Shown here: one piece after another, positions 23,795 through 49,223 of the stretch
Layout of the letters: every line of letters starts with the position of its first letter
How positions within the stretch are numbered: position 1 is the first letter of the stretch
From: Amycolatopsis australiensis
GTDB taxonomy: Bacteria; Actinomycetota; Actinomycetes; Mycobacteriales; Pseudonocardiaceae
Length of the DNA stretch: 64,000 bases
NCBI RefSeq assembly: GCF_900119165.1
Contig: NZ_FPJG01000006.1
Location: 4,402,001 to 4,466,000 of the forward strand
Reading direction: 5' to 3'
Notes under the pieces: generated by a model
Told to the model about the DNA's origin: nothing
What the model saw: only the letters and a program-made list of their open reading frames with translations
Database searches by the model: none
Program-made: the position numbers and the translations under genes

Positions 23795-23815
23795 CCTGAC
23801 CGACCGCTTAGCATG
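23795..23815 (-). promoter_or_regulatory. Candidate TetR-type operator before the SDR-SDR-carboxyltransferase operon
   Basis: Read on the minus strand the site is CATGCTAAGCGGTCGGTCAG. It aligns with four other sites in this window to CATACYRASCRGTYGST. It sits 35 bp before GTG 23851, next to an AT-rich stretch (CGCATAATG) that may be the -10 region. Confidence 0.6.
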
Positions 23816-23850
23816 TGCCCGGTACCGCATCGCGAAGGAGACACACTGCC

Positions 23851-24603
23851 GTGAACTCGTTCAAGGATCGCGTCGCGATCGTCACCGGGGCCAGCCGGGG
23901 CATCGGCCTCGGCATCGCCAAGACGCTCGTCGAGCGCGGGGCCAAGGTCTGCATCACCGCACGCAAGCCCGAGGCCCTCGAGGCGGCCGTCAACGAGCTC
24001 GGCGGGCCCGACGTCGCCCTGTTCGTCCCCGGCAAGGCCGACGACACCGACCACCAGGACGAGGCCGTCGCCAAGACGATCGAGACCTTCGGGCGGCTCG
24101 ACTACCTCGTCAACAACACCGGCATCAACCCCGTCTACGGCCCCACCCTCGACATCGACCCCGCCGCCGCGGCCAAGATCCTCGGCGTGAACGTGCTCGC
24201 GCCGCTCGGCTGGACCAAGCGCGCCCGCGACGCGTGGATGGGGGAGCACGGTGGTGCCGTCGTCAACGTCGCTTCCGTCGCCGGCCTCGGCGCGTCGCCC
24301 GGCATCGGCATGTACGGCGTCAGCAAGGCCGCGCTCATCCGGCTGACCGTCGAACTCGGGGCCGAGCTGGGCCCGAAGATCCGGGTGAACGCCGTCGCCC
24401 CGGCCGTCGTGAAGACGAAGTTCGCCACCGCGCTCTACGAGGGCCGCGAGGAGGAGGTCGCTTCCGCCTACCCGATGAAACGCCTGGGCCTGCCGTCCGA
24501 CATCGCCGGCGCCGTCGCCTTCCTGCTTTCCGACGACGCCGGCTGGATCACCGGCCAGACCGTGGTCCTCGACGGCGGCGTCACCCTCGGCGGTGGCCTG
24601 TGA
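23851..24603 (+). CDS. Short-chain dehydrogenase/reductase (FabG-like)
   Basis: A 250-residue NAD(P)-dependent oxidoreductase. It has the cofactor motif TGASRGIGLGIA at about residues 13-24, the NNTG structural motif (NNAG in most SDRs), and the catalytic Ser...Tyr-x-x-x-Lys as VASVAG and YGVSKAAL. The C-terminus closes with WITGQTVVLDGGVTLGGG, typical of 3-oxoacyl reductases. GTG 23851 is preceded by AAGGAGA. It overlaps the second SDR gene by 4 bp and heads an operon with it and a carboxyltransferase, downstream of a putative TetR site; probably an oxidation step in acyl-CoA breakdown. Confidence 0.92.
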   Translation: MNSFKDRVAIVTGASRGIGLGIAKTLVERGAKVCITARKPEALEAAVNELGGPDVALFVPGKADDTDHQDEAVAKTIETFGRLDYLVNNTGINPVYGPTLDIDPAAAAKILGVNVLAPLGWTKRARDAWMGEHGGAVVNVASVAGLGASPGIGMYGVSKAALIRLTVELGAELGPKIRVNAVAPAVVKTKFATALYEGREEEVASAYPMKRLGLPSDIAGAVAFLLSDDAGWITGQTVVLDGGVTLGGGL

Positions 24604-25370
24604 CCGGCGTTGTCGTCACCGGCGGTGGCGGCGGGATCGGCGCCGCGCTCGCCCGCCGCTTCGCCGCCGAGGGCGCCCAGGTCCTCGTCGCCGACCTCGA
24701 CCGCGACAAGGCCGCCGAAGTCGCGAAGGAAGTGGGTGGCACGGCGTTCGCGGGTGACGTCGCCAGCCCCGAAGGCGTCGCGAAGCTGATCGAGAGCGCG
24801 CGAAGCACCCTCGGCGAGATAGACGTCTTCTGTGCCAACGCGGGTATCGCGCCCTTCGGTGGCGCGGAAAGCCCCGAAGACGTCTGGGCGCGTACCTGGG
24901 ACGTGAACGTCATGGCGCACGTCCGCGCGGCCAACCTCCTGCTGCCGGCCTGGCTGGAGCGCGGGAAGGGCCACTTCATCGCGACGGTCTCGGCCGCCGG
25001 CCTGCTGACCAGCCTCGGCTCGGCGCCGTACTCGGTGACCAAGCACGCCGCGCTCGCGTTCGCCGAATGGCTCTCGGCGACCTACCGCCACCGCGGCATC
25101 ACCGTGCAGGCGATCTGCCCGCAGGGCGTGCGCACCGCGATGCTGGAAAGCACCGGCACCGCCGGTCAGCTGCTGATGGGCGCATCGGCGATCGAGCCCG
25201 AGCAGGTGGCCGACGCGCTCTTCGCGGCCATCGAGGCGAAGCAGTTCCTCGTGCTGCCGCACCCCGAGGTCGCGGACTACTACGCGGCCCGCGCCACCCA
25301 GACCGACCGGTGGCTCGGCGGGATGAACAAGCTGCAGCGCAAGGTCGAAGCAGCCCTCGAGGCGGAATGA
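24600..25370 (+). CDS. Short-chain dehydrogenase/reductase
   Basis: A 256-residue classical SDR: cofactor motif TGGGGGIGAALA near the N-terminus, acidic LVADLDRD for NAD selectivity, CANAGI, and catalytic Ser (TVSAAG) and YSVTKHA. The C-terminal region (VLPHPEVADYYAARATQTDRW) is typical of mycobacterial-type SDRs of lipid metabolism. It begins with GTG inside the preceding stop codon (GTGA overlap) and overlaps the carboxyltransferase start by 4 bp, so the three proteins are likely made together. Confidence 0.92.
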   Translation: MTGVVVTGGGGGIGAALARRFAAEGAQVLVADLDRDKAAEVAKEVGGTAFAGDVASPEGVAKLIESARSTLGEIDVFCANAGIAPFGGAESPEDVWARTWDVNVMAHVRAANLLLPAWLERGKGHFIATVSAAGLLTSLGSAPYSVTKHAALAFAEWLSATYRHRGITVQAICPQGVRTAMLESTGTAGQLLMGASAIEPEQVADALFAAIEAKQFLVLPHPEVADYYAARATQTDRWLGGMNKLQRKVEAALEAE

Positions 25371-26914
25371 CCTGGCAGCCGGAGATCGACGAGCTCGCCC
25401 GGCGGCGCGAGCTGGCCGAGCGCATGGGCGGACCGGAGAAGGTGGCCCGCCAGCACGCCGCCGGCCGCTCGACCATCCGCGAGCGGATCGCCGCCCTCGC
25501 CGATCCCGGCAGCTTCGACGAGATCGGCGCGCTCGCCGGCACCGCGTCCTATGTGGACGGCGAGCTGACCGAGTTCACCCCGGCCAACTTCGTCATCGGC
25601 ACCGCGCGGCTCGACGGCCGGCGCGTGGCGCTCGGCGGAGACGACTTCACCGTCCGCGGTGGCGCCGCCGACGCCGCGATCATGGAGAAGCAGGTCTACG
25701 CCGAGCGGCTCGCCAACGAGCTGCGGCTGCCGCTGGTGCGCCTGATCGAGGGCACCGGCGGTGGTGGCAGCGTGAAGATGCTGGAGCAGCACGGCTTCAC
25801 CTACGTCCCGGTCAACCCGGGCTGGGACCTCGTGGTGGACAACCTCTCGACGGTGCCGGTGGTCGCCCTCTGCCTCGGCCCGGTCGCCGGGCTCGGCGCC
25901 GCGCGGGCGGTCATGTCGCACCTGAACGTCCTCGTCGAAGGGGCCGGGCAGCTGTTCGTCGCCGGCCCGCCCGTGGTCAGGCACGCGACCGGAGAAGACC
26001 TGTCCAAAGAGGAGCTGGGCGGCGCGGCCGTCCACCGGCGCAGCGGTGCCGTGGACCGGATCGTGGCCTCCGAGGCCGAAGCCTTCGCCGTCACCAAGCA
26101 GTTCCTGTCCTACCTGCCGTCCTCGGTGGATTCACTGCCGCCGGTGACGTCCAGTGCAGACCCGGTGGACCGGGCCGACGAAGCGCTGCTGTCGCTGGTG
26201 CCGCGCAACCGCCGGCACCCGTACCGGCTGCGGCCGCTGCTCGACGGCGTCTTCGACGCGGGCTCGGTTTTCGACTACGCCGTGTCGGGCGGCTCGGCCT
26301 ACGCCGGGCTGGCCCGCCTGAACGGCCACCCGGTCGGCGTCCTGGCCACCGACCCGTACCGCGGCGCGACGCTGACCCCCGAAGGCGCCGACGTGCTGAC
26401 GCGGTTCGTCGACCTCTGCGAGACGTTCCACCTGCCGCTGGTGTCGCTGACCGACCAGGCCGGCATGGTGATCGGCGCGGCCGCCGAGCGTGCGGGCGCG
26501 ATCCGGCACGGCGCCCGCGCGGTGACCGCGGTCTACCAGGCGCGGGTGCCGATGGCCGAGGTGATCGTCCGGCGCGTGTTCGGTGTCGGCGGCGCGGGCC
26601 AGGTGAACCGGCACCGGCTGGTCCGGCGCTGGGCATGGCCGTCGGGGGACTGGGGTTCCCTGCCGGTCGAGGGCGGCATCGAGGCGGCCTACCGAGCCGA
26701 GCTGGACGCCGCCGACGACCGGGCGGCCCGGATCGAGGAGATCCGCGCGCGCCTGGACGCGGTGCGCTCGCCGTTCCGGACGGCGGAGCGGTTTTCGGTC
26801 GAGGACGTCATCGATCCGCGCGAGACGCGGGCGCGGCTGTGCGATTGGGTGCCGGACGCCTACGCCGTGCTTCCGCGGCTGCTCGGCCGCCCGTCCTTCG
26901 GCATGCGGCCTTAG
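25367..26914 (+). CDS. Acyl-CoA carboxylase beta (carboxyltransferase) subunit
   Basis: Transfers CO2 from biotin to an acyl-CoA. The 515-residue protein has the two crotonase-like carboxyltransferase halves: N-terminal with RERIAALADPGSFDEIG, LVRLIEGTGGGGSVKML and GLGAARAVMSHLNVLV; C-terminal with VGVLATDPYRGATLTPEGAD, FVDLCETFHLPLVSLTDQAG and a glycine-rich VFGVGGAGQ. Members with this pattern act on propionyl-, methylcrotonyl- or geranyl-CoA-like substrates. No biotin carboxylase or biotin carrier gene is nearby, so the alpha subunit must be encoded elsewhere. Last gene of the operon; its stop overlaps the convergent gene by 4 bp. Confidence 0.88.
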   Translation: MTWQPEIDELARRRELAERMGGPEKVARQHAAGRSTIRERIAALADPGSFDEIGALAGTASYVDGELTEFTPANFVIGTARLDGRRVALGGDDFTVRGGAADAAIMEKQVYAERLANELRLPLVRLIEGTGGGGSVKMLEQHGFTYVPVNPGWDLVVDNLSTVPVVALCLGPVAGLGAARAVMSHLNVLVEGAGQLFVAGPPVVRHATGEDLSKEELGGAAVHRRSGAVDRIVASEAEAFAVTKQFLSYLPSSVDSLPPVTSSADPVDRADEALLSLVPRNRRHPYRLRPLLDGVFDAGSVFDYAVSGGSAYAGLARLNGHPVGVLATDPYRGATLTPEGADVLTRFVDLCETFHLPLVSLTDQAGMVIGAAAERAGAIRHGARAVTAVYQARVPMAEVIVRRVFGVGGAGQVNRHRLVRRWAWPSGDWGSLPVEGGIEAAYRAELDAADDRAARIEEIRARLDAVRSPFRTAERFSVEDVIDPRETRARLCDWVPDAYAVLPRLLGRPSFGMRP

Positions 26915-27426: not shown

Positions 27427-27620
27427 GATGTCTCCTTTGCGCCGGTTGGCGGACTTCCGTACTGACGGCGGCGGCCGGGAAAAGTCATCGGGTTCACCCG
27501 GCCGTGTCCGGAACGCGACAGGATCAGCACAGACCGTTGACAACGGTGTCAGCTCGCGAGGACCGTTCCGGAACGCATCGCATCGGCTGAACTTGTGCTC
27601 AATGGCGAAGGACAAGTGCA

Positions 27621-30275: not shown

Positions 30276-30278
30276 CCG

Positions 30279-30325
30279 GGTCGTGAGTGAGAAACCGGGT
30301 CAGAACCGGTTTCTCACTCACGACC
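30279..30325. terminator. 20-bp perfect palindrome, bidirectional terminator
   Basis: GGTCGTGAGTGAGAAACCGG (30279-30298) and its exact complement (30306-30325) flank a 7-nt loop GTCAGAA. It lies just after the GH92 stop and contains, on the opposite strand, the stop codon (30314-30316) and last codons of the enoyl-CoA hydratase gene. It would act on transcripts from both sides. Confidence 0.8.
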
Positions 30326-31165
30326 GGTGTGGGGCGGGAACTGTGGCGCACGGCGTTCGTTCCAGCTGGCCAAGCCCTCGGCCAGCTCGGGACGGCCGAA
30401 CGACTCGATCATCAGCGCCGTCGCCTCGCGGGCCGCTTCCTCCAGCGGCAGCGAGGCTTCGCGCGTGAACTGCGCTTTCATCACCGCCATCGAACGCGGC
30501 GCGCTGTAGGTCGCCAGCTCCGTCGCGTATGCGCGGGCGCGCAGCAGCAGCTCCTCCGCGGGGACGACCTCCTGCACCAGCCCGTACTCGTGCGCCTGCT
30601 CCGCGGTGAACGTCCGGCCCGAAAGCAGCAGGTCACGGGCCCGGCCCTGGCCGACCAGCGCGGGCAGCAGCTGCGCGATCCCGTACTCCGCGATCAGCCC
30701 GCGCCGGGCGAACGCCGTCGTGAACTTCGCGCCCGCCGCGGCGAAGCGGACGTCCGCCGAGCACGCGATCACGAACCCCAGGCCCGCGCAGCCGCCGTTG
30801 ACCGCCGCGACGACCGGGACGCCCACCGAGACCGCCGCCAGCACGTCGCGGAAGTTCTCGTGCCCGCCTCCCGGCGCCGGGGGCGCGGCCGCGATGGTTC
30901 CGCCCGTGCCCCCGCCGCCCTCGACGGAGGCGCGGAGCGCCGCTGTGTTTTCCAGCAAGCCGAGGTCGGCGCCCGGGCAGAACGCCTTGCCCGCGCCGGT
31001 GACGACGACCGCCCGGACGGCCGGATCGGCGTCGGCCTGGCGCAGCAGGGTGCCGTAGCGCGCCTGCATCGGCACGTCCATCGCGTTGCTGCGGTCCGGC
31101 TTGTCGAACGTCAGCGTCGCGACCGGGCCGTCCGCCGCGTACCGCACTCCGTCCACAGTGGACAT
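30314..31165 (-). CDS. Enoyl-CoA hydratase/isomerase family protein
   Basis: A 283-residue crotonase-fold enzyme. The oxyanion-hole segments are GKAFCPGADLGLLEN and AAVNGGCAGLGFVIACSAD. The region normally carrying the first catalytic Glu (the QPEI segment of crotonase) reads FARRGL here, and a Glu occurs a little later in GLIAEYGIAQLLPALVG, a pattern seen in many actinobacterial paralogues; the reaction may thus be isomerisation or another crotonase chemistry. Preceded 23 bp upstream by a putative TetR operator. RBS GAGGAGG precedes the ATG. A monocistronic unit flanked by two secreted glycosidases; its last codons lie in a palindrome. Confidence 0.9.
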   Translation of the reverse strand: MSTVDGVRYAADGPVATLTFDKPDRSNAMDVPMQARYGTLLRQADADPAVRAVVVTGAGKAFCPGADLGLLENTAALRASVEGGGGTGGTIAAAPPAPGGGHENFRDVLAAVSVGVPVVAAVNGGCAGLGFVIACSADVRFAAAGAKFTTAFARRGLIAEYGIAQLLPALVGQGRARDLLLSGRTFTAEQAHEYGLVQEVVPAEELLLRARAYATELATYSAPRSMAVMKAQFTREASLPLEEAAREATALMIESFGRPELAEGLASWNERRAPQFPPHTGRE

Positions 31166-31188
31166 GACTGCCTCCTCGGGTCAGTGAC

Positions 31189-31208
31189 CATACTAAGCGG
31201 TCGCTTGG
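31189..31208 (+). promoter_or_regulatory. Candidate TetR-type operator before the enoyl-CoA hydratase gene
   Basis: CATACTAAGCGGTCGCTTGG with arms AAGCG and CGCTT about a GT centre. It lies 23 bp upstream of the start codon at 31165. On the coding (minus) strand the adjoining TAGTAT could be the -10 hexamer, so binding would block RNA polymerase. Confidence 0.65.
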
Positions 31209-31306: not shown

Positions 31307-34300
31307 ATGCCGCACACTCCCAGCCGACGTCAGGTCCTCGGCGGACTCGGCGCCGCCGTCGCCACGTCCGCCCTCGCGCCGGTCGCCCGTGCCGCCGGGA
31401 CGCTCGCCCGGCCGGACCTGGCCGTCACCGGCCGCGCCACCGACCTGGCCGCGGGCTGGCGGTTCGCTCTCGTGAACCCCGACGGCGTCACCGACCCGGA
31501 CGGCCGTTTCGCCCGCGCCGCCGATCCGGCCTTCGACGACTCGGCGTGGCAGGTCGTCGACGTCCCGCACGACTGGAGCATCGAGCTGCCGCCGGTCGCC
31601 GACGGGCGCACGGCCGGTGCGTCCGGCTTCTTCCGCGGCGGCCTCGGCTGGTACCGCAAGTCCGTCACGCTGCCGCCTTCGCTCGCCGGAAAGCGCGTGT
31701 CGGTCGAGTTCGACGGCGTCTACTCCGACGCGCACGTGCACCTCAACGGCGAGCTGCTCGGCAACCACCCGTGCGCCTACACCGGGTTCGCGTTCGACCT
31801 CACCGGCCGCCTGCACACCGACGGCCGGACACCGAACGTCCTGGCGGTGCGCGCGGTGAACCCGATGCCCAGCAGCCGCTGGTACGCCGGCAGCGGCATC
31901 TACCGGCGCGTCCGGCTGGTCGTGACCGAGCCGGTGCACGTCGCCCGGCACGGCACCTTCGTCACCACCCCCGGCATCGCCGCGGGCCGCGGCACCGTCC
32001 GGGTGGCGACCGACGTCGTGAACGACTCCGCCGCGCCGGTGACGGCCGAGGTGCGCACCACGGTCACCGGCCCGGAGGGCCGCGTCGTCGCGGCGGGCTC
32101 GGCCACCGTGGCGGTGCCCGCCGGCGGGACGGCGACGGCGGTCACCACGCCGGACGTCGCCGGCCCGCGGCTGTGGTCGGTGGGCTCTCCGGTGCTCTAC
32201 GGCCTCCGCACGGACGTCGCCGTGGCCGGGCGCGTGCTCGACACGACGTCCACCGCCTTCGGCTTCCGGTACCCCGAATTCCACCCGGACCACGGGTTCT
32301 CGCTCAACGGCGAGCCGATGAAGCTGCGCGGGGTCAACCTGCACTCGACGCAGGGCCCGCTGGGCGCGGTGGTCGACGCCGCCGCGCTGGAACGCCAGAT
32401 GCGGCTGATGCTCGCGATGGGTGCCAACGCGCTGCGGACCGCGCACAACCCGCCGGACCCGCAGCTGGTGACGATCTGCGAGCAGCTCGGGATCCTCATG
32501 ATGGTGGAGGCGTTCGACTGCTGGCGGACCGGGAAGGTCGAGTACGACTACCACCGCGACTTCGACGCGTGGAGCGCGCGCGACATCGGCGAAATGGTCC
32601 ACGCGGCGAAGAACTCCCCGGCGGTGGTGCTGTGGTCGATCGGCAACGAGGTGCCCGACGCGTCGATGGCGGGCGGCCCCGGGATCGCGGCCGGCCTGAT
32701 CGCCGCCGTCCGCGCGATCGACCCGACCCGGCCGGTCGTGATGGGCTCGGACCGCTACCGGAGCGTGCCGGCGCCGGGCTCGCCGCAGGACCTGATCCTG
32801 CGGCAGCTCGACGGCCTCGGCGTCAACTACAACACCGCGCAGTCGATCGACGGGCTGCACGCGAAGTACCCGGACAAGTTCTTCTTCGAGTCGGAGTCGT
32901 CGTCGGCGACCTCCACGCGCGGCGTCTACCAGGACCCGGACCTGCTCAACACGGGCGAGAACCACACGCCGGGCAAGCGGGCGACCTCCTCCTACGACAA
33001 CAACCTGGCGTCGTGGACGTTCAGTGGCGAGTACTCGCTGAAGAAGGACCGCGACCGGAAGTTCTGCCAGGGCCAGTTCCTCTGGGCCGGGCAGGACTAC
33101 CTGGGCGAGCCGACGCCCTACGACGTCTTCCCGGTCAAGACGTCGTTCTTCGGCGCGATCGACAGCGCCGGCCTGCCCAAGGACGCCTTCCACCTGTTCC
33201 GCAGCCAGTGGACCACCGCGCCGATGGTGCACCTGACGCCGATGGACTGGACCCGGCACCGGCCCGGCGAACCCGTCGCGGTGTGGGTGTATTCCACAGT
33301 GGACACAGTCGAGCTGGTCCTCAACGGACGGTCGCTCGGGGTGCAGCGGTTCGACCGCAAGACCACAGTGGACGGACGGCCGTACCTGGAGACCACCGAG
33401 GCCACCGGCGACGACAAGAACGATCCGTCGGGCAGCTACACGAGCCCGAACGGCAGCCGCGGCAAGCTGCACCTGACGTGGACCGTGCCGTTCGAGCCGG
33501 GCACGCTGACTGCGATCGCCACCTCCGGAGGTCGCGAGGTGGCGCGTGACCGGCTCGTCACGGCGGGGCCACCCCGGGCGCTGACGCTGACGGCGGAGCC
33601 GCGCGGGCAGGGCGCGATGACGTTCGTGACGGCGTCCGTCGTCGACGAGCACGGTGTCGTGGTGCCGGGCGCCGAGCCGGTGCTGCGGTTCACCGTCCGG
33701 GGGCCGGGACGCGTGGCGGGCGTCGACAACGGGCGGCAGGAGAACGCGCAGAGCTACCAGCAGCCGGCGATCCCGGCGTTCGGCGGGCAGGCGGTCGCGG
33801 TGATCGCGGCGACCGGCGGCCGCGGCCCGATCACGGTGACGGTGAGTTCGCCGGGCCTGGCACCGGGGAACGTCACCGTGCCGGGCACGAGCCTCGGGCA
33901 GCGCAACGGCCCGGGCGCGCGAGCGGTGGAGCGACCGGCGAGCCCGGGATTGGCGGCGGCCGACGCGAGCTACTCGGGCGCCCCGGACACCGTCCCGGCG
34001 GCCATGCTGGACGGCGACCCGGCGACAGGCTGGTCGAACTTCTACGTCAAACAGGCGACGGCGACGCTGAACGCGGTGAGCCGCCCGCGCGAGCAGGACC
34101 ACGGCGTTCACCGGCGGCAGGGCGCGAGTGCGTCGAGCCCCTGCGGTTTGGCGGCGTTGCGCCCGACGGCCGTCGCGATGCGGTTGATCGCCGCGACGCG
34201 CTTGTCCTTCAACGGGCCCAGGATCGCGTTCGGCACGAAGTTCGGGCCGCCTTGGCCGGCGCTTGTCGCCAGGCGGTCGTTCGCCTCCGCGATCTGCGTG

Positions 34301-34867
34301 TCCAGCAGTTGCAGGTTGCGCCGCACCTCCGCCTGGGCCTGGGCCGGGATCGCGGGCAGCCGGCTCGCCACGTCCGGGCAGCTGATCTGCCCGCCCGCGT
34401 TGGTCCCGCCCGTCTGCACCGGTGCGGAGGCGGCCGGCGCCGGGGCGGCCTGGCCGCCCAGGGCGCATGTGGCCAGCCGGCCGAGACCCTGCGGTTTCAC
34501 TCCCTGGCGGCCGATCGCGATGGCGATCCGGTCGATCGTCGACGTGCGCTTGTCCGCCAGCGGACCGAGGATCGCGTTCGGCACGAAGTTCGAGCCGCCC
34601 TGGCCGGCGCTTGTCGCCAGGCGGTCGTTCGCCTCCGCGATCTGCGTGTCCAGCAGTTGCAGGTTGCGCCGCACCTCCGCCTGGGCCGGGATCGCGGGCA
34701 GCCGGCTCGCGACGTCCGGGCACGTGATCCGGCTGCCGGACGCGGCGCTCGCCTGGCCGGGGTCGCCGACGGTCGTGGCGATCACCAGCGCGCCGCCCGC
34801 CATCGCCAGGCCCAGGGCCGCCGTCGCGAGCTTCGTCCGGCGGGAGAGGCGATGCCGTCCACCTTGA
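31307..34867 (+). CDS. Exported GH2 beta-galactosidase, C-terminal discoidin domain truncated
   Basis: The genuine part is residues 1-925 (to about 34080). A twin-arginine signal peptide (SRRQVLGGLGAAVATSALAP) precedes the GH2 sugar-binding domain, an Ig-like domain, the TIM barrel with acid/base Glu in WSIGNEVPDAS and nucleophile Glu in FFFESESSS, a DUF4982-like domain (EPVAVWVYSTVDTVELVLNG) and a second beta domain. A discoidin (F5/8C) domain starts with AAMLDGDPATGWSNF but stops abruptly after TLNAVS. From there the frame runs on for about 260 codons antisense to the next gene before meeting a stop at 34867. This tail has no meaning as protein, so the gene was probably truncated by a rearrangement. 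The catalytic part may still work. Confidence 0.75.
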   Translation: MPHTPSRRQVLGGLGAAVATSALAPVARAAGTLARPDLAVTGRATDLAAGWRFALVNPDGVTDPDGRFARAADPAFDDSAWQVVDVPHDWSIELPPVADGRTAGASGFFRGGLGWYRKSVTLPPSLAGKRVSVEFDGVYSDAHVHLNGELLGNHPCAYTGFAFDLTGRLHTDGRTPNVLAVRAVNPMPSSRWYAGSGIYRRVRLVVTEPVHVARHGTFVTTPGIAAGRGTVRVATDVVNDSAAPVTAEVRTTVTGPEGRVVAAGSATVAVPAGGTATAVTTPDVAGPRLWSVGSPVLYGLRTDVAVAGRVLDTTSTAFGFRYPEFHPDHGFSLNGEPMKLRGVNLHSTQGPLGAVVDAAALERQMRLMLAMGANALRTAHNPPDPQLVTICEQLGILMMVEAFDCWRTGKVEYDYHRDFDAWSARDIGEMVHAAKNSPAVVLWSIGNEVPDASMAGGPGIAAGLIAAVRAIDPTRPVVMGSDRYRSVPAPGSPQDLILRQLDGLGVNYNTAQSIDGLHAKYPDKFFFESESSSATSTRGVYQDPDLLNTGENHTPGKRATSSYDNNLASWTFSGEYSLKKDRDRKFCQGQFLWAGQDYLGEPTPYDVFPVKTSFFGAIDSAGLPKDAFHLFRSQWTTAPMVHLTPMDWTRHRPGEPVAVWVYSTVDTVELVLNGRSLGVQRFDRKTTVDGRPYLETTEATGDDKNDPSGSYTSPNGSRGKLHLTWTVPFEPGTLTAIATSGGREVARDRLVTAGPPRALTLTAEPRGQGAMTFVTASVVDEHGVVVPGAEPVLRFTVRGPGRVAGVDNGRQENAQSYQQPAIPAFGGQAVAVIAATGGRGPITVTVSSPGLAPGNVTVPGTSLGQRNGPGARAVERPASPGLAAADASYSGAPDTVPAAMLDGDPATGWSNFYVKQATATLNAVSRPREQDHGVHRRQGASASSPCGLAALRPTAVAMRLIAATRLSFNGPRIAFGTKFGPPWPALVARRSFASAICVSSSCRLRRTSAWAWAGIAGSRLATSGQLICPPALVPPVCTGAEAAGAGAAWPPRAHVASRPRPCGFTPWRPIAMAIRSIVDVRLSASGPRIAFGTKFEPPWPALVARRSFASAICVSSSCRLRRTSAWAGIAGSRLATSGHVIRLPDAALAWPGSPTVVAITSAPPAIARPRAAVASFVRRERRCRPP

Positions 34868-35149: not shown

Positions 35150-35168
35150 CATACCGACCGGTCGGTGT
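35150..35168 (+). promoter_or_regulatory. Candidate TetR-type operator before the acyl-CoA synthetase gene
   Basis: CATACCGACCGGTCGGTGT contains a perfect 14-bp palindrome ACCGACC/GGTCGGT (35153-35166). It lies just downstream of the predicted -10 and 18 bp before GTG 35187, a position suited to repression. It shares the CATAC lead-in with the other four sites in the window. Confidence 0.7.
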
Positions 35169-37912: not shown

Positions 37913-38539
37913 GTGACCCGAGCAAGCACCCGCAAGCCGGGCGAAGCCACCGGCGACGACCAGGCCGCCGTGCCCCGGCGGCTGCTGGAGCACGCCACGA
38001 AGCTGTTCGCCAAGAAGGGCTTCGACCGCACGTCGGTCCAGGAGATCGTCGAGGCGGCGGGCGTCACCAAGGGCGCGATGTACCACTACTTCGGCTCGAA
38101 GGACGACCTGCTCTACGAGATCTACGCCCGCGTCCTGCGCGAGCAGACCCGGCAGCTGGAAAGCGTGGCCTCCTCGGCCGCGCCGCTGCGCGAACGGCTC
38201 GCCGCGGCCGCGTCCGACGTCGTGGTGTCCAGCATCGACAACCTGGACGACAACACGATCTTCCTGCAGTCGATGCACCAGCTGTCCCCGGACAAGCAGA
38301 AGGCGGTGCGCGCCGAGCGCCGCAAGTACCACGAGCGCTTCCGCGGCCTGATCGAGGAAGGCCAGGCGAGCGGCGAGTTCCGCACGGACAAGCCGGCGGA
38401 CGTGGTCGTCGACTTCTTCTTCGGCTCGGTCCACCACCTCGGCTCGTGGTACCGCCGCGGCGGCTCGCTGTCGGCCCGCCAGGTCGGCGACCACTACGCG
38501 GACCTGCTGCTCGACGCCCTGCGGCCGCCGGGCCGCTAG
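37913..38539 (+). CDS. TetR-family repressor of acyl-CoA metabolism (FadR/KstR2-like)
   Basis: A 208-residue TetR regulator. The helix-turn-helix lies at about residues 18-65: RRLLEHATKLFAKKGFDRTS, VQEIVEAAGVTKGAMYHYFGSKDDLL. The ligand domain (PDKQKAVRAERRKYHERFRG, FFFGSVHHLGSWYRR) resembles the KstR2/FadR-like group that senses acyl-CoA. GTG 37913 with GAGGGGG upstream is preferred over GTG 37874. It lies 100 bp downstream of the phosphotriesterase-like gene on the same strand and is the only TetR gene in the window, so it is the best candidate for the five palindromic sites. Its TAG stop codon is also the first triplet of a decayed IS end, so the C-terminus may have been altered by insertion. 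Confidence 0.88.
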   Translation: MTRASTRKPGEATGDDQAAVPRRLLEHATKLFAKKGFDRTSVQEIVEAAGVTKGAMYHYFGSKDDLLYEIYARVLREQTRQLESVASSAAPLRERLAAAASDVVVSSIDNLDDNTIFLQSMHQLSPDKQKAVRAERRKYHERFRGLIEEGQASGEFRTDKPADVVVDFFFGSVHHLGSWYRRGGSLSARQVGDHYADLLLDALRPPGR

Positions 38540-40367: not shown

Positions 40368-40370
40368 GGC

Positions 40371-43112: not shown

Positions 43113-43314
43113 CGGTGTCTCCCCCTTGCGAACACGGGGGCAACCCCTCGCCGCCCCCAGGCGTGTTCACCTCAGCACCCGGACAGCCGGGCCGTCAAGG
43201 GATCACCGGGACGGACGGGATCGCGCGGGACACAACCGGAATACCGGGTGTGTCACGGCGATGGCCCGTGCCGTCGTTCCGGCCCGCGCGGACCGCGGAC
43301 CGCGGCCCGGCGCG

Positions 43315-44409
43315 TCAGGCGGGCAGGTTCACCAGGTCCGCCAGGCGGGCCCGGTGCCTGCCCGGCGTGCCGAGTGCCAGCTCGTCGGCCTTGGCGCGCT
43401 TGAGGTACAGGTGCGCGGGGTGCTCCCAGGTCATCCCGATGCCGCCGTGCAGCTGGATCGCCTCCTCCGCCGCCTTCACCGCGATCGGCGCCACCCGGGC
43501 CTGCGCGACCGCCACCGCGATCGGCACGTCGGTGCCCGTGGCCAGTGCGTCCGCCGCGTTGCGGGCCGCCGCGCGGGCGATCACCAGGTCCGTGTACAGG
43601 TTCGCCAGCCGGTGCTTGAGGGCCTGGAACCCGCCCACCGGGCGGCCGAACTGGTAGCGGCCCTTGAGGTAGGCCACCGTCTCGGTGAGCGCCCACTCGG
43701 CGACGCCCGTCTGCTCCGACGCCAGGATGCCCGCGCCGGTCAGCAGCGCCTCCTCCAGCGCCGCCGCCGCTTGCGGTCCCGAGGCCACCAGGACCCCCGG
43801 CGCGTCCGACAGCTCGACGTCGGCCACGCGCCGGGTCAGGTCGAACGAGACCAGCTCCGACACCGTCGCGGCGGATGCCTCGACCACGTACAGCGCGGGG
43901 CCGTCCGGGCCGGCGGCCGGGACGACGAGCAGGTCCGCCGCCGAGGCGTCGGCGACCGTGCCCACCCGGCCGGACAGCGTTCCCGCCGGCGAGGCCGTCA
44001 CCGACGACGGGAAGCCCGCGCCGGGCGCCGTGGACAGCGTGACGGCCAGCGCGCCGGTCGCCTGGCCCGTCGCGAGGCGGCGGACGAAGTCGGCGGCGCC
44101 CGCGTGCACCAGCGCCGTCGTCGCCAGCACCACGCTGCCCAGGAACGGCACCGGCGCCACGCTGCGGCCCAGCTCCTCGGCCACGACGGCCACTTCGCGG
44201 GCCGAAGCGCCGTGCCCGCCCAGCTCCTCGGGCACCGCCAGCCCGGCGATGCCGACCTCCTCGGCCAGCGTGCGCCACAGCTTCAGGTCGTACCCCTCGG
44301 CCGTCTCGACGCGCGCCAGCAGCGCCTCCGCCGAAGCCTTGTCCTTCAACAGGTCCCGGACCGAGGCGCGCAGGTCTTCCTCGACGTCCGAATACAGCAG
44401 GTCGCTCAT
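43315..44409 (-). CDS. Acyl-CoA dehydrogenase family protein (short)
   Basis: A 364-residue flavoprotein-like subunit of the ACAD family. N-terminal helices (DLLYSDVEEDLRASVRDLLKD), AVPEELGGHGASAREVAVVAEELGRS, and C-terminal helical bundle with FGRPVGGFQALKHRLANLYTDL and IQLHGGIGMTWEHPAHLYLKR. Actinobacterial ACADs of steroid and branched lipid catabolism work as alpha2beta2 heteromers of two such genes. It overlaps the next ACAD by 4 bp (ATGA) and is last in the APH-ACAD-ACAD-ACAD operon. The catalytic Glu position cannot be fixed by eye. Confidence 0.9.
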   Translation of the reverse strand: MSDLLYSDVEEDLRASVRDLLKDKASAEALLARVETAEGYDLKLWRTLAEEVGIAGLAVPEELGGHGASAREVAVVAEELGRSVAPVPFLGSVVLATTALVHAGAADFVRRLATGQATGALAVTLSTAPGAGFPSSVTASPAGTLSGRVGTVADASAADLLVVPAAGPDGPALYVVEASAATVSELVSFDLTRRVADVELSDAPGVLVASGPQAAAALEEALLTGAGILASEQTGVAEWALTETVAYLKGRYQFGRPVGGFQALKHRLANLYTDLVIARAAARNAADALATGTDVPIAVAVAQARVAPIAVKAAEEAIQLHGGIGMTWEHPAHLYLKRAKADELALGTPGRHRARLADLVNLPA

Positions 44410-45590
44410 CGGGGCAGGTCCTTCCAGGCGACGTCCTTGTCGACACGCGGCTCCGAGGGCAGGCCCAGCACGCGCTCGGCGATGATGTTGCGCAGGATCT
44501 CCGAGGTGCCGCCCTCGATGGAGTTGCCCTTCGCGCGCAGGTAGCGGTAGCCGGCTTCGCGGCCGGTGAAGTCGACGATCGCCGGGCGCCGGAACGTCCA
44601 GTCGTCGTAGGCCAGACCTTCTTCGCCCAGCAGCTCGACCTCCAGGCCGGTGAGCGCCTGGTTCAGCTCGGAGAAGGCGACCTTCATGGCCGAGCCTTCC
44701 GGCCCGGGCGCCCCGGCCGCCAGCTGCTGGCGCAGCCGGGTGCCGGCCAGCCGCAGCGTCTCCGCCTCGACCCAGTGCTTCACCAGCCGGTCACGCAGCT
44801 CGGGCGTGCGCAGCTCGGGCCGCTCGCGCCAGGTCTTCGCGACGATCCCGATCAGCCCGCCCTCGCGGGGCAGGACGTGCCCGCCGATCGCGACGCGCTC
44901 GTTCATCAGCGTCGTCTGCGCGACCTTCCAGCCTTCACCGACCGCGCCGAGGCGCTGGGTGTCCGGAATCCGGACGTCGGTCAGGAACACCTCGTTGAAC
45001 TCGGCCTCGCCGGTGATCTGGCGCAGCGGCCGGACCTCGACGCCGGGCGCGGTCATGTCGCACAGGAAGTACGTCATGCCCTGGTGCTTCGGCACGTCCG
45101 GGTCGGTGCGGGTGACCAGGATCGCCCACTGCGACTCGTGCGCCCCGGACGTCCACACCTTCTGGCCGGTGACGATCCAGTCGTCGCCGTCGCGCACCGC
45201 CCGCGTGCCGAGCGCGGCGAGGTCGGAGCCGGCGCCGGGCTCGGAGAACAGCTGGCACCACACCTCCTCGCCGGTCCACAGTGGACGCAGGTAGCGCTCG
45301 CGCTGCTCCGGCGTGCCGAAGGCGAGGATGGTCGGCGCGGCCATGCCGAGGCCGATGCCGATCCGGCGCGGGTTGTTGTCCGGCGCACCCGCTTCCGCGA
45401 ACGCATTGTCCACAACGGACTGCAGGGCGCGCGGGGCGTTCTGGCCGCCGAGGCCGGCGGGGAAGTGGATCCACGCGAGACCGGCGTCGAACCGGGCCCG
45501 CAGGAACTCCAGCCGGTCGGTGGTCCCGGGGTCGTGCGCGGCCAGGAACTCGCGCACCTGGCGCGTCAGGTCTTCGGCGGTGACAGTCAC
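44406..45590 (-). CDS. Acyl-CoA dehydrogenase
   Basis: A 394-residue FAD-dependent ACAD that introduces an alpha,beta double bond in an acyl-CoA. It has WCQLFSEPGAGSDLAALGTRA (FAD/substrate segment), WIVTGQKVWTSGAHESQWAI, NEVFLTDVRIPD, and the C-terminal IEGGTSEILRNIIAERVLGLP. GTG 45590 overlaps the end of the upstream ACAD by 4 bp and its end overlaps the next ACAD start by 4 bp. This arrangement suggests a heteromeric enzyme with the neighbouring short ACAD. Confidence 0.93.
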   Translation of the reverse strand: MTVTAEDLTRQVREFLAAHDPGTTDRLEFLRARFDAGLAWIHFPAGLGGQNAPRALQSVVDNAFAEAGAPDNNPRRIGIGLGMAAPTILAFGTPEQRERYLRPLWTGEEVWCQLFSEPGAGSDLAALGTRAVRDGDDWIVTGQKVWTSGAHESQWAILVTRTDPDVPKHQGMTYFLCDMTAPGVEVRPLRQITGEAEFNEVFLTDVRIPDTQRLGAVGEGWKVAQTTLMNERVAIGGHVLPREGGLIGIVAKTWRERPELRTPELRDRLVKHWVEAETLRLAGTRLRQQLAAGAPGPEGSAMKVAFSELNQALTGLEVELLGEEGLAYDDWTFRRPAIVDFTGREAGYRYLRAKGNSIEGGTSEILRNIIAERVLGLPSEPRVDKDVAWKDLPR

Positions 45591-46810
45591 TTGGCGCCCT
45601 CCGAGAGGTACTTCTTGAGTTCCCGCCGGGCCAGCGAGCGCTTGTGCACCTCGTCGGGCCCGTCGGCCAGGCGCAGCGTCCGGTTCCCGGCCCACATCGC
45701 GGCGAGCGGGAAGTCCTGGCTGACGCCGCCCGCGCCGTGCACCTGCACGGCCTTGTCGAGGATCCATTCGACGGCGCTCGGGGTGGAGATCTTGATCGCC
45801 TGGATCTCGGTGTGCGCGCCCTGGTTGCCGACGGTGTCCATCAGCCACGCGGTCTTGAGCACCAGCAGCCGCTGCTGCTCGATCCGCACGCGGGACTCGG
45901 CGATCCAGTCCTGCACCACGCCCTGCTGGGCGATCGGCTTGCCGAACGCCTCGCGCGAGATCGCCCGGCGGCACATGAGCTCCAGCGCGCGTTCGGCCAT
46001 GCCGATGGCGCGCATGCAGTGGTGGATGCGGCCCGGCCCGAGCCGCGCCTGGGCGATGGCGAACCCGTCGCCCTCGCCGGCGATGAGGTTCTCGACCGGC
46101 ACGCGGACGTCCTCGAACAGCACCTCGGCGTGGCCGCCGTGGTCGCTGTCGTCGTAGCCGAACACGTGCATGCCGCGCTTGACCGTGACGCCCGGCGTGT
46201 CGCGGGGAACCAGGATCATGCTCTGCTGCTTGTGCGGCGCGGCTTCGGGATCGGTCTTGCCCATCACGATGAAGATCTTGCACGCGGGGTTCATCGCGCC
46301 GGAGATGTACCACTTGCGGCCGTTGACGACGTATTCGTCGCCGTCGCGGCGGATCGCGGTCTCGATGTTGCGGGCGTCGGAGGAGGCGACGTCGGGCTCG
46401 GTCATCGCGAACGCGGAGCGGATTTCCCCGTTCAGCAACGGTTCCAGCCACTGCTTCTGCTGGTCGTCGTTGCCGAACATGGCCAGCACTTCCATGTTCC
46501 CGGTGTCCGGCGCGGCGCAGTTGAGCGCGGTCGGCGCCAGCCGGATGCTGCGGCCGGTGATCTCCGCCAGCGGCGCGTACTGGAGGTTCGTCAGGCCCGC
46601 ACCGTGGTCGCCGGGGAGGAAGAAGTTCCACAGGCCGCGCTTGCGGGCCTCGGCCTTCAGCTCGTCCATGACCGGCGGGATGGCCCACGGGTCGTCGCGC
46701 TCGGCGAGCTGCTGTTCGAACACCGGCTCGGCGGGGTAGATGTGCGAGTCCATGAACTCGAGGAGCCGCCCGCGCAGCTCCTCGGTCTTCTCGTCGAACG
46801 CGAAGTCCAT
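45587..46810 (-). CDS. Acyl-CoA dehydrogenase (ACAD10/11-like)
   Basis: A 407-residue ACAD resembling the catalytic part of mammalian ACAD10/ACAD11. FAMTEPDVASSDARNIETAI, YVVNGRKWYISGAMNPACKI, VFGYDDSDHGGHAEVLFEDV, QVHGAGGVSQDFPLA and DGPDEVHKRSLARREL are all present. It directly follows the aminoglycoside-phosphotransferase-like gene (start 46810, previous stop 46811). In mammals the APH-like kinase and the ACAD domain are fused in one protein for 4-hydroxy-acid catabolism; here they are adjacent genes, which suggests a comparable two-step route. Confidence 0.93.
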   Translation of the reverse strand: MDFAFDEKTEELRGRLLEFMDSHIYPAEPVFEQQLAERDDPWAIPPVMDELKAEARKRGLWNFFLPGDHGAGLTNLQYAPLAEITGRSIRLAPTALNCAAPDTGNMEVLAMFGNDDQQKQWLEPLLNGEIRSAFAMTEPDVASSDARNIETAIRRDGDEYVVNGRKWYISGAMNPACKIFIVMGKTDPEAAPHKQQSMILVPRDTPGVTVKRGMHVFGYDDSDHGGHAEVLFEDVRVPVENLIAGEGDGFAIAQARLGPGRIHHCMRAIGMAERALELMCRRAISREAFGKPIAQQGVVQDWIAESRVRIEQQRLLVLKTAWLMDTVGNQGAHTEIQAIKISTPSAVEWILDKAVQVHGAGGVSQDFPLAAMWAGNRTLRLADGPDEVHKRSLARRELKKYLSEGAK

Positions 46811-47836
46811 TTACTTCTCCTCTTTGAGAATCTCGTTGCCGTGCGCGATGAGCGGCGCGACCCCGGCGCCGACGCCTTCGAAGCCCGCCCCGACCGTCTG
46901 GCCCTTGCTGAAGCGGTAGTGGATGCCTTCCAGGATCACCGCCAGCTTGAAGAAGGCGAAGCTGACATACCAGTTCAGCTGCGAGACGTCCCGGCCCGAG
47001 AGTTCGGCGTAGCGCCGCACGACTTCGTCGGTCGTCGGGTAGCCCGGCGCCGAGCTGGCGTTGGAGACGAACTGCAGGGACACCTTGTCGCGCTCGGCGT
47101 AGGCCACCAGCAGCGCGAGGTCGGTGAGCGGGTCGCCGAGCGTCGACATCTCCCAGTCGAGCACGGCCGAGATCCGGTCGGTCCGGTCGACCAGGACGTT
47201 GTCCAGCCGGTAGTCGCCGTGGACGATCGACGGCTTCCCGGAGACGGGCACCGCGGCCGCGAGCCGGTCGTGCAGCTCTTCGATGCCGGGCAGATCCCGG
47301 CTGCGCGAGGCGTCCAGCTGCTTCTTCCACCGCCGCAGCTGCCGCTCGAGGAAGCCTTCCGGGCGGCCGAAGCCCGCCAGGCCAGCGGCGGCCGGGTCGA
47401 CCGAGTGCAGGTCGACGAGCGTGTCGACCAGCGCTTCGGCGATCGCCCGGGTCCGCTGCTCGCCGAGTGCCGCCAGCTCGTCGGCGGTCCGGTACGGCGT
47501 GCCCTCCACGAAGCTCATGACGTAGAACTGCGCGCCGAGGACGCCGGGTTCCTCGCAGAGCAGGATCGCCTCGGGCACCGGCACGGCGGTGTCGCGCAGG
47601 CCGGAGATCACCCGGAACTCGCGGGTCATGTCGTGCGCCGTGGGCAGCACGTGCCCGAGCGGCGGGCGGCGTACGACCCAGCGCGAGCGGCCGTCGCCCA
47701 CCACGTAGGTGAGGTTGGACCGGCCGCCCTCGACGACGTCCGCGGTCAGCTCCCCGGCGACCATCCCGGGCCGCTGCGCGTCCAGGTGGGCGCGCAGCCG
47801 GTCCAGGTCGAGCCCCGGCGGGTCGGTGCGGGTCAT
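46811..47836 (-). CDS. Aminoglycoside-phosphotransferase-like kinase of acyl-CoA catabolism
   Basis: A 341-residue APH/ChoK-fold kinase. It shows VVEGGRSNLTYVVGD (nucleotide loop), WVVRRPPLGH (Lys-equivalent strand), the catalytic loop IVHGDYRLDNVLV and the metal-binding AVLDWEMSTLGDPLTDLALL. Homologues beside ACADs are equivalent to the kinase half of ACAD10/11, which phosphorylates 4-hydroxyacyl-CoA before elimination. This makes it unlikely to be an antibiotic-resistance gene. RBS GAGGAGG precedes ATG 47836. First gene of an operon with three ACADs, 29 bp downstream of a perfect 20-bp palindrome. Confidence 0.9.
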   Translation of the reverse strand: MTRTDPPGLDLDRLRAHLDAQRPGMVAGELTADVVEGGRSNLTYVVGDGRSRWVVRRPPLGHVLPTAHDMTREFRVISGLRDTAVPVPEAILLCEEPGVLGAQFYVMSFVEGTPYRTADELAALGEQRTRAIAEALVDTLVDLHSVDPAAAGLAGFGRPEGFLERQLRRWKKQLDASRSRDLPGIEELHDRLAAAVPVSGKPSIVHGDYRLDNVLVDRTDRISAVLDWEMSTLGDPLTDLALLVAYAERDKVSLQFVSNASSAPGYPTTDEVVRRYAELSGRDVSQLNWYVSFAFFKLAVILEGIHYRFSKGQTVGAGFEGVGAGVAPLIAHGNEILKEEK

Positions 47837-47865
47837 CCAGCCTCCTCGAAGTCCGTCCGGGCAAG

Positions 47866-47885
47866 CATACCGACTAGTCGGTATG
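47866..47885. promoter_or_regulatory. Perfect 20-bp palindromic operator before the APH-ACAD operon
   Basis: CATACCGACTAGTCGGTATG is fully symmetric. It lies 29 bp before the start codon of the APH-like gene and matches the window-wide consensus CATACYRASCRGTYGST. It is the strongest member of the five-site set. Confidence 0.75.
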
Positions 47886-47941
47886 ACGTACAGAGGCGGG
47901 GCGAGCGGCACTTTCCGCCGAAAGCACCGCTCGCCGCGGCG

Positions 47942-48394
47942 TCACGCGAGGAACCGCGTCACCCATTCGGCGACGCAGGCCGGCTTCGCCTCGCCGTCGA
48001 TCTCGACCGTCCACTTCGACACCGCCTGCTTGCCGCCCGGGATGTCGGTGACCTCCACCAGCTCGGCGCCGGCGCGCACCTTCGAGCCGACCTTCACCGG
48101 CTGCGGGAAGCGGACCTTGTTGAGTCCGTAGTTGATGCCCATCTTGATGCCGTTGACCTTGTAGATCTTCGGCCCGAACGCCGAGAGCAGCGACAGCGTC
48201 AGGAAGCCGTGCGCGATGGTGCCGCCGAACGGGCCCGCGGTCGCCATCGGCTCGTCGACGTGGATCCACTGGTGGTCGTCGGTGGCGTCGGCGAACTGGT
48301 TGACCCGGTCCTGGGTGACCTTCAGCCACTCGCTGTACCCGAGGTGCTCGCCGACGGCGGCGGCGAACGCGTCCAGGTTCTCGAACTCGCGCAT
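47942..48394 (-). CDS. MaoC-family hot-dog dehydratase
   Basis: A 150-residue (R)-specific enoyl-CoA hydratase-like protein. The hydratase 2 motif is seen as FADATDDHQWIHVD with the catalytic Asp and His, followed by GPFGGTIAHGFLTLSLLSAF. It ends in a standard hot-dog strand (GEAKPACVAEWVTRFLA). It is the second gene of a FabG-MaoC pair, 5 bp downstream of fabG. Together they would hydrate an enoyl-CoA and oxidise the 3-hydroxyacyl-CoA. Confidence 0.92.
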   Translation of the reverse strand: MREFENLDAFAAAVGEHLGYSEWLKVTQDRVNQFADATDDHQWIHVDEPMATAGPFGGTIAHGFLTLSLLSAFGPKIYKVNGIKMGINYGLNKVRFPQPVKVGSKVRAGAELVEVTDIPGGKQAVSKWTVEIDGEAKPACVAEWVTRFLA

Positions 48395-48399
48395 CGCCC

Positions 48400-49161
48400 T
48401 CAGTCCTTCGGTCCGCCGGCGGCGTAGACGACCTGGCCCGAGATGAACCCGGCGCCCTCGCTCACCAGGAAGGAGGCGAGGTGCGCGATGTCGTCGGGCG
48501 TGCCGACGCGCTGCACCGGGATCTGCGACGCGGCCGCCGCCTTGAAGTCCTCGAAGCTCATGCCGATGCGCTCGGCGGTCGCGGCGGTCATGTCGGTGGC
48601 GATGAAGCCCGGCGCGATCGCGTTGGCCGTGACGTTGAACTTGCCCAGCTCGATGGCCAGCGTCTTGGTGAAGCCCTGCATGCCGGCCTTCGCGGCGGAG
48701 TAGTTGACCTGGCCGCGGTTGCCCAGCGCCGAGGTGCTGGAGAGGTTGACGATCCGGCCGTACTTCTGCTCGGTCATGTACTTCTGCACCGCGCGGGTCA
48801 TCAGGAAGGAGCCCTTGAGGTGCACGTCGAGCACCGAGTCCCAGTCCTGCTCGGTCATCTTGAACAGCAGGTTGTCGCGCGTGATGCCGGCGTTGTTGAC
48901 GAGCACGACCGGCGGGCCCAGCTCTTCGGCGACGCGGGTGACGGCCGCCTCGACCTGCTCGGCGTCCCGCACGTCCAGCGCGACGCCGACGGCCTTGCCG
49001 CCCTTCGCGACGATCGCCTCGGCGCCCTGCTTGACACCGGCCTCGTCCAGGTCCAGCAGCCCGACGGCGAAGCCGTCATCGGCGAGCCGGGCGGCGATGG
49101 CGGCACCGATGCCGCGGCCGGCACCGGTGACCACGGCGACACGGGAAGGGGAATCGGTCAC
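48400..49161 (-). CDS. 3-oxoacyl-(ACP/CoA) reductase, FabG-type SDR
   Basis: A 253-residue SDR with TGAGRGIGAAIAARLADDG (cofactor), LVNNAGITRDNLL (NNAG), and catalytic Ser (NLSSTSALG) and YSAAKAG. The C-terminus ends with GFISGQVVYAAGGPKD. GTG 49161 is chosen for the AGGAGG that precedes it by 5 nt; a longer ATG form from 49206 would run through the operator at 49204-49223. It heads a two-gene unit with MaoC. Confidence 0.93.
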   Translation of the reverse strand: MTDSPSRVAVVTGAGRGIGAAIAARLADDGFAVGLLDLDEAGVKQGAEAIVAKGGKAVGVALDVRDAEQVEAAVTRVAEELGPPVVLVNNAGITRDNLLFKMTEQDWDSVLDVHLKGSFLMTRAVQKYMTEQKYGRIVNLSSTSALGNRGQVNYSAAKAGMQGFTKTLAIELGKFNVTANAIAPGFIATDMTAATAERIGMSFEDFKAAAASQIPVQRVGTPDDIAHLASFLVSEGAGFISGQVVYAAGGPKD

Positions 49162-49203
49162 GGGGACCTCCTCGTCGTTGAGAAGCGGGTTCGTGCCCGC
49201 GAG

Positions 49204-49223
49204 CATACTAAGCAGTTGCTTTC
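49204..49223 (+). promoter_or_regulatory. Candidate TetR-type operator before the fabG-maoC unit
   Basis: CATACTAAGCAGTTGCTTTC, with arms AAGC / GCTT, aligns with the other four sites. It lies 42 bp upstream of GTG 49161. It is the most degenerate in symmetry but keeps the invariant CATAC and GTyG positions. Confidence 0.6.

Follow-up and report, generated by a model that had tools for sequence, protein, structure and literature searches.

Do five palindromic sites in front of acyl-CoA genes in Amycolatopsis australiensis answer to one regulator or to two? The sites lie in a 64,000-nucleotide stretch of the genome (the window, with a G+C content of 73.5%, which starts at C6:4402001 in a genome of 9.3 Mb), together with one TetR-family gene, and an earlier note had aligned them without gaps and proposed that this TetR controls all five units. 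We found that they resolve into two palindrome types, A and B, by symmetry instead of by letters. Type A is tied across genomes to a second TetR protein encoded outside the window (TetRA) and type B to the TetR of the window (TetRB), so that one proposed regulon becomes two. Our preferred reading, to which we assign a probability of roughly 0.83, is that two TetR repressors, each with its own operator type, divide one catabolic pathway; the window TetR would then probably bind two of the five sites. The sites and genes concerned are as follows, with the support for each in brackets.

23796-23811, minus strand: type A operator, imperfect and mixed (CTAAGCGGTCGGTCAG on the minus strand), before SDR1-SDR2-AccD (dyad, matrix, relatives)
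23809-23814, plus strand: predicted -10-like TAGCAT overlapping this operator (sequence)
23851-24603, plus strand: SDR1, short-chain dehydrogenase (SDR), first of its unit (Pfam adh_short_C2)
24600-25370, plus strand: SDR2, short-chain dehydrogenase (domain search)
25367-26914, plus strand: AccD-like acyl-CoA carboxyltransferase (Pfam Carboxyl_trans)
30314-31165, minus strand: ECH, enoyl-CoA hydratase/isomerase (Pfam ECH_1)
31190-31195, minus strand: predicted -10-like TAGTAT overlapping the ECH operator (TANNNT in relatives)
31193-31208, no strand: type A operator CTAAGCGGTCGCTTGG, 28 bp from the ECH start (dyad, matrix, relatives)
35153-35166, no strand: type B operator ACCGACCGGTCGGT, a perfect dyad (dyad, matrix)
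35187-36839, plus strand: FadD-type acyl-CoA synthetase (Pfam AMP-binding)
36844-37812, plus strand: phosphotriesterase-family protein, likely a lactonase (Pfam PTE; PDB 4if2 E 2.7e-137, 2vc5 E 5.5e-77)
37913-38539, plus strand: TetRB, proposed repressor of type B sites (Pfam TetR_N, TetR_C_24; model pLDDT 90.4)
43315-44409, minus strand: ACAD3, without the HCMR motif (domain and motif search)
44406-45590, minus strand: ACAD2, without the HCMR motif (domain and motif search)
45587-46810, minus strand: ACAD1, of the ACAD11/LvaC type, with the HCMR motif (PDB 8v3u E 4e-139; motif)
46811-47836, minus strand: APH-fold kinase of the LvaA/ACAD11-kinase type, HGDYRLDN (PDB 9o56 E 7.4e-68, 8v3v E 2.8e-49; motif)
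47864-47869, minus strand: predicted -10-like TATGCT overlapping the APH operator (TANNNT in relatives)
47866-47885, no strand: type B operator CATACCGACTAGTCGGTATG, a perfect 20-bp dyad with its core at 47869-47882 (dyad, matrix)
47942-48394, minus strand: MaoC-type dehydratase (domain search)
48400-49206, minus strand: SDR3, FabG-like, start probably GTG 49167 (the longer start abuts the operator)
49208-49223, no strand: type A operator CTAAGCAGTTGCTTTC before SDR3-MaoC (dyad, matrix, relatives)

All five sequences reported earlier are present at their positions, including the perfect dyads of 14 bp (35153-35166) and 20 bp (47866-47885). These two are the type B sites, with the dyad ACCGAC-YR-GTCGGT at 35153-35166 before the fadD-lactonase-TetR operon and at 47869-47882 before the kinase-ACAD operon. 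The remaining three follow the type A dyad CTAAGC-RNNY-GCTTAG, at 23796-23811 (SDR operon), 31193-31208 (enoyl-CoA hydratase) and 49208-49223 (SDR-MaoC), and match its arms at 10, 11 and 10 of 12 letters, respectively (2, 1 and 2 departures). In the gapless alignment the A and B dyad centres are offset by 2 bp, so a dimer that recognizes one dyad would sit in a different register on A and on B. The consensus drawn from that alignment, CATACYRASCRGTYGST, is exact at three of the five sites and has one mismatch each at 23799 and 47866. The CATAC prefix common to all five reads differently in each type: in B it is operator flank, and in A it complements a -10-like box (TAGTATG towards ECH). Distances from site to first gene agree with the 18-42 bp described before (SDR1 40 bp, ECH 28, FadD 21, APH 33 and, by coordinates, SDR3 41 bp provided that it starts at GTG 49167).

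As a single pattern the sites stand out locally and fade genome-wide. Allowing up to three mismatches, CATACYRASCRGTYGST has 8 matches in the window against 3.18 expected, a number reached in 1 of 100 shuffles; five are the noted sites, and the rest are reverse readings of two palindromes and a match at 25299 within SDR2. A scan of the whole genome with the combined A and B pattern returned 17 rows against 10 for its reversed control, so close to the control that the mixed motif is a poor genome-wide probe. Matrices built from promoters in other genomes, A from 18 TetRA-promoter sites and B from 11 TetRB-promoter sites, separated the five sites instead; the half-site scores used to choose their training sites came from the window, which makes the matrices only partly blind to it, and the TetRA of the own genome was excluded. 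Over the 64 kb, the top positions for matrix A were 31189 (22.6 bits), 49204 (22.4) and 23792 (15.1), followed by 6.9, and those for matrix B were 47864 (32.6 bits) and 35148 (26.5), followed by 14.6 at 49202. In 15 base-shuffled windows the mean best score was 11.3 (maximum 17.1) for A and 10.7 (maximum 17.6) for B. Cross-scores were one-sided: B sites fell below 0 by the A matrix and A sites scored 9.6-14.6 by the B matrix. In the own genome, exact type B occurs at three places, all intergenic and 21-33 bp before a gene, against none for the reversed-pattern control; at one mismatch there were 43 places against 23. Fifteen B places were inspected: the 3 exact ones all precede genes, and 8 of the 12 inexact ones lie within genes. 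The third exact site precedes a gene for a beta-lactamase-fold serine hydrolase outside the window.

TetRA is encoded at C6:4361365-4361988, approximately 40 kb left of the window start, and was thus invisible to the earlier reader. It has an imperfect A site (10/12) 55 bp upstream. A search of 150 genomes of the order gave 31 TetRA matches, 30 of them with loci; in these loci, picked by the TetRA protein alone, type A lay upstream in 23 of 30, own genome included, and in 13 of 13 at 71% identity or above. The arrangement TetRA-A-SDR1/SDR2 recurs at 46-52% identity. Of the 150 genomes, 29 have TetRA, and 25 of these contain the exact A core, compared with 9 of the 121 that lack TetRA (Fisher 4.8e-17; within-family permutation p 5e-5); outside the own family the figures were 10 of 14 and 6 of 117. 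Type A-like sites also stand elsewhere. In the own genome they precede an acyl-CoA dehydrogenase-like and a thiolase-like gene; from C6:1950683 onward (locus L130, 9683-14230), a type A site lies 26 bp before an acyl-CoA dehydrogenase-like gene and near a cluster of another TetR, an acyl-CoA synthetase-like and an ECH-like gene (all named by eye). In L046 (at 4640) and L142-L145, an A-like site follows TetRA and stands in front of or close to a small gene, deaminase-like by eye in L046 and L143.

TetRB carries a TetR_N helix-turn-helix and an all-helical C-terminal domain, and is 97-98% identical to TetR proteins of Amycolatopsis rifamycinica, A. pretoriensis, A. bullii and relatives. In the window no other TetRB relative was found at E 1e-6 among the 150 of 204 candidates scored. 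Within the own family a B site was present in 14 of 14 genomes with TetRB and 1 of 5 without, and B lies directly before TetRB in Prauserella, Microbispora, Sphaerisporangium, Planomonospora and others. Among loci chosen by TetRB, with flanks of about 1.5 kb, a full B site was near TetRB in 2 of 24, a count that is mostly uninformative because the operator may precede the operon. In other species, B sites precede genes for a zinc-type dehydrogenase and an MFS transporter (two of the latter tested). The MFS-type transporter probably joins the regulon in those species: five loci (L034, L035, L041, L047 and L052; Pfam matches in L035 and L052) carry a near-B site, ACCGACYRGTTGGT, roughly 90-110 bp upstream of its gene.

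To see which operator type stands before which unit, we fetched 80 loci by the window TetR protein, called genes and scored both motifs (A at 10 or more, B at 11 or more of 12 arm letters). A first count, restricted to first-of-unit genes, skipped genes that gene calling had not placed, and so it was redone with tblastn-mapped genes, misses included; the recount omits partial matches (SDR1 1, ECH 1, SDR3 7, APH 4, TetRB 1). By tblastn, type A stood upstream of SDR1 in 26 of 26 cases, TetRA in 27 of 27 and SDR3 in 21 of 36, with no B before any of the three. ECH had A in 17 of 18 and B in three (L032, L035 and L043), which carry A too. Conversely, B stood before FadD in 18 of 20, with A in four, and before APH in 40 of 58, with no A; TetRB itself had B in 12 and A in 5 of 79. 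All four FadD genes with A (L032, L035, L040 and L041) are divergent from ECH, and in L032 the divergent ECH and FadD carry A and B, respectively. Counting first-of-unit genes only, under identity limits set after the labels were seen, gave A for 17 of 29 SDR3 and B for 37 of 40 APH; weaker-identity genes set apart (n = 36) had A in 5 and B in 22, and other first-of-unit genes had A in 16 and B in 32 of 383. The sites are thus conserved before orthologous acyl-CoA genes, and the interpretation in the earlier note is supported in part: the window TetR is tied to two of the sites, but one regulator for all five is not supported, as the other three go with TetRA.

Could TetRB nevertheless control all five units, with type A a relaxed form of type B? 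The sites do align gaplessly, the SDR1 site is mixed between A and B in this species group, two A sites take third and fifth place among the B-matrix scores of the window, and B stands before an SDR1 homologue in Nocardiopsis, Halopolyspora and one Saccharopolyspora locus. Moreover, two genomes of one genus with TetRB and no TetRA hit (G062 and G104) have five exact B sites each. Against this, the dyad centres lie 2 bp apart, type A tracks TetRA across families with variable central bases, and SDR1 (26) and SDR3 (36) orthologues over the identity limit never carry B. We therefore regard control of all five units by TetRB as very improbable. In G062 and G104, for which loci were obtained for 6 of the 10 places, it is as if TetRB took over more units, given 1-3 exact B sites in family members with both regulators; a third genome without TetRA, G083, has three exact B sites.

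The SDR1 site is the least clear-cut of the five. We compared SDR1 upstream regions in 30 genus loci from 60 genomes. The 19 closest (L187-L205, window included) all hold ACCGAC, a full B half, adjoining a GCTTRG A half; 15 score A 9/B 10, one A 9/B 9, and three, including the window, A 10/B 8. The other 11 (L206-L216) have a cleaner A dyad before SDR1 (10-12/12). In 8 of these 11 TetRA lies no more than about 1.5 kb from SDR1, and this is so in none of the 19 mixed-site loci, an association that favours overlapping control, a variant of the preferred reading in which TetRA owns the A sites and TetRB also binds the mixed site here, after SDR1 left the side of TetRA. Set against it, a TetRA gene of another genus, in L142, is accompanied by the identical 16-mer CTAAGCGGTCGGTCAG, so that the window site may be just a weak A site. 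Overlapping control is in our view unlikely, though the strongest of the alternatives; the mixed site may record a handover between regulators or be only a weak A site.

With two regulons as the preferred reading, the position of the operators suggests how they might work. The edge of the site that faces the gene carries a TANNNT box in 16 of 16 distinct sequences for ECH and 20 of 22 for TetRA (type A), and in 11 of 11 for TetRB and 23 of 36 distinct ones for APH (type B); these counts have no background, and at most 14 sequences were printed per group. Before SDR1 with A the box is mostly missing (5 of 19), and at this edge none was seen for SDR3 (0 of 18), FadD with B (0 of 17) or A (0 of 4), or SDR1 with B (0 of 12). 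Of the 14 FadD promoter sequences printed, 12 have TAGCGT or TAGCTT immediately upstream of the site. Operators that overlap or adjoin -10-like boxes suit repression by polymerase blocking, as a bound repressor would block RNA polymerase. TetRB would bind ACCGACYRGTCGGT and repress the entry steps, namely its own fadD-lactonase operon, the APH-ACAD1-3 operon and the serine hydrolase gene outside the window. The target of TetRA would be CTAAGCRNNYGCTTAG, through which it would repress its own gene along with the beta-oxidation steps (SDR1-SDR2-AccD, ECH and SDR3-MaoC). In the window, the B set would thus serve pathway entry and the A set the common beta-oxidation end. Release would be by a pathway metabolite, most likely an acyl-CoA, else the lactone. 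Fold neighbours of the TetRB model are PfmR, KstR2, BkaR, AibR with isovaleryl-CoA and FadR with stearoyl-CoA; the acyl-CoA in the last two favours an acyl-CoA ligand.

The catalytic motifs point to the pathway. ACAD1 matches ACAD11 (8v3u, E 4e-139) and APH matches the ACAD11 kinase domain (8v3v, E 2.8e-49). R-x7-HCMR and an Asp at +127 were found in 64 of 64 scored ACAD1 relatives, and HGDxxxxN in 58 of 58 scored APH relatives; the window proteins have HCMR and HGDYRLDN. Within the fadD operon lies the phosphotriesterase-family protein, whose nearest PDB sequences, 4if2 and 2vc5, we take to be lactonases. For ACAD11, the cited part of PMC12440821 reports the residues R626, HCMR and D753, whose spacing is matched in all 64 ACAD1 relatives. 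A kinase and an ACAD1 with ACAD10/11 catalytic motifs point to 4-hydroxyacyl-CoA (gamma-lactone) breakdown, and judging from these sequences the pathway most likely breaks down lactone-derived hydroxy acids. A lactone, taken up or hydrolysed, would yield a 4-hydroxy acid and then its CoA ester, which APH would phosphorylate at position 4; ACAD1 would then eliminate the phosphate and beta-oxidation would follow. Ordinary beta-oxidation of branched or straight fatty acids, which is compatible with two regulators, would account for the generic FadD, ECH, SDR, MaoC and ACAD2/3, but the special ACAD11 residues of ACAD1 and APH and the phosphotriesterase-family protein in the fadD operon argue against it, and we consider it unlikely, slightly more so than overlapping control.

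Several observations weigh against a clean division into two regulons. At the level of the sites, the SDR1 site (23792, 15.1 bits) taken alone is within the chance range of shuffled windows, so its case rests on conservation, and its conserved mixture of A and B leaves room for limited cross-control. The B matrix gives 14.6 bits at 49202 and 11.7 at 31187. No A site of the window has a complete dyad (the arms match at 11, 10 and 10 of 12 letters), and in the own genome A at two mismatches is not enriched (19 places, 15 of them inspected, against 66 for the reversed control). With regard to the regulators, 7 of 30 TetRA loci lack A, and the A core also associates with TetRB (16 of 22 genomes with it versus 18 of 128; outside the family p 0.058, weak), because TetRA and TetRB tend to co-occur. 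Type B is unspecific outside the family, being present in 92 of 150 genomes, 70 of these without TetRB, and it lies directly before TetRB in only the 12 of 79 cases given above. The own genome also encodes a TetRB paralogue, 55% identical (C6:8757757-8758344, minus strand; L186 1498-2064), with no type B site within 1.5 kb. This paralogue has an altered recognition helix, VTKGGLYHYF, and neighbours that by eye look like regulator and ABC substrate-binding genes. In the 80-locus survey, the loci are related and the counts are not independent; FadD in L040 and L041 has A without B; and neither type precedes SDR3 in 15 of 36 or APH in 18 of 58 cases, some of them within operons. SDR3 and APH lack their own site in L060, L064, L067 and L085 (Actinosynnema, Rhodococcus and Kibdelosporangium). 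Mapped gene by gene, L064 and L067 have TetRB-SDR3-MaoC-APH-ACAD1 as one run behind an A site shared with ECH, so the A/B split fails there, and which regulator a unit falls under differs between genera.

Two further features of the window were noted. A glycoside hydrolase family 2 gene (31307-34867) is divergent from ECH over the 31193 operator, a place occupied by FadD in L032, L035, L040 and L041. At 19590-19961 and 20196-20555 lie adjacent genes for similar small proteins, with signal-like N-termini and then His-rich stretches (in the first 40 residues).

Collectively, these results predict an operator and a set of targets for each of two actinobacterial TetR proteins, and place a lactonase, a CoA ligase and a kinase-dehydrogenase pair of the ACAD10/11 type in one testable pathway. 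They also illustrate that a gapless alignment of palindromes can fuse two regulons into one, and the SDR1 site provides a natural example of an operator that alters as its gene moves to new neighbours. Our searches of open-licence literature showed no description of these operators or of the regulon pair, and a search on Rv0230c-Rv0232 yielded nothing of use.

Among known systems, PaaR of Burkholderia cenocepacia is a TetR repressor whose operator, as given in the cited parts of PMC2770484 and PMC9493321, is ACCGACCGGTCGGT, the 35153 core (0 mismatches there, 2 at 47869). PaaR controls paa genes, whereas the genes behind the three exact B sites (fadD-PTE-TetR, APH-ACAD and the serine hydrolase) are not paa genes, with the genome not searched for paa genes; with an equal operator core and different genes, we rejected PaaR as a name for TetRB. 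The ScbR/AvaR1 receptors for gamma-butyrolactones and butenolides are alike in that the best NCBIfam match of TetRB is ScbR-type, and 47866 fits the AvaR1 consensus with one mismatch, as do 2 of 4,000 random stretches. An ScbR-type assignment was rejected, as TetRB scores 67.9 bits against a cut-off of 150 for NF041196. The QsdR-QsdA-QsdC system of Rhodococcus erythropolis likewise combines a TetR repressor, a lactonase and a fatty acyl-CoA ligase, and QsdR is released by homoserine lactone or gamma-caprolactone (PMC6262395 and PMC6476934, in the parts cited). This parallel between operons, with a lactone-sensing repressor, favours a lactone ligand. Unlike here, qsdR is divergent from qsdA and not in its operon, and the QsdR structure 4ZA6 was absent from the 60 of 186 PDB sequence matches of TetRB that were listed and from the best 50 fold matches. 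That TetRB is a lactone-responsive repressor that, through an ARE-like, PaaR-like operator, switches on the breakdown of gamma-lactones, possibly signalling lactones of actinomycetes, and that in this species group it shares the SDR1 operator with TetRA as a handover read by both, seems to us improbable as a whole. LvaA/LvaC of Pseudomonas putida and mammalian ACAD10/ACAD11 pair a kinase with an ACAD carrying HCMR and the catalytic Asp; the genes are separate here, as in lva, and fused in mammals, and here they are apparently under TetR control.

KstR and KstR2 of mycobacteria and rhodococci are a further parallel. The earlier note held the motifs to differ from theirs, and mismatch scoring bears this out: across the five sites the operator consensus of KstR (TnnAACnnGTTnnA) misses by 3-4 letters, that of KstR2 (AnCAAGnnCTTGnT) by 2-4 and that of BkaR (GTTA(N)T(N4)A(N)TAAC) by 4-6. 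The closest fit, two mismatches to KstR2 at 49204, is equalled by 27 of 4,000 random stretches, so all three were rejected. The present gene set does not resemble steroid breakdown either. As far as the cited parts of PMC1995591 and PMC3068626 describe them, however, KstR and KstR2 are two TetR repressors with different palindromes serving one catabolic programme, and the KstR operator overlaps a -10 box. The arrangement found here is genuine and conserved, of a familiar kind, and best read as two TetR regulons instead of one.

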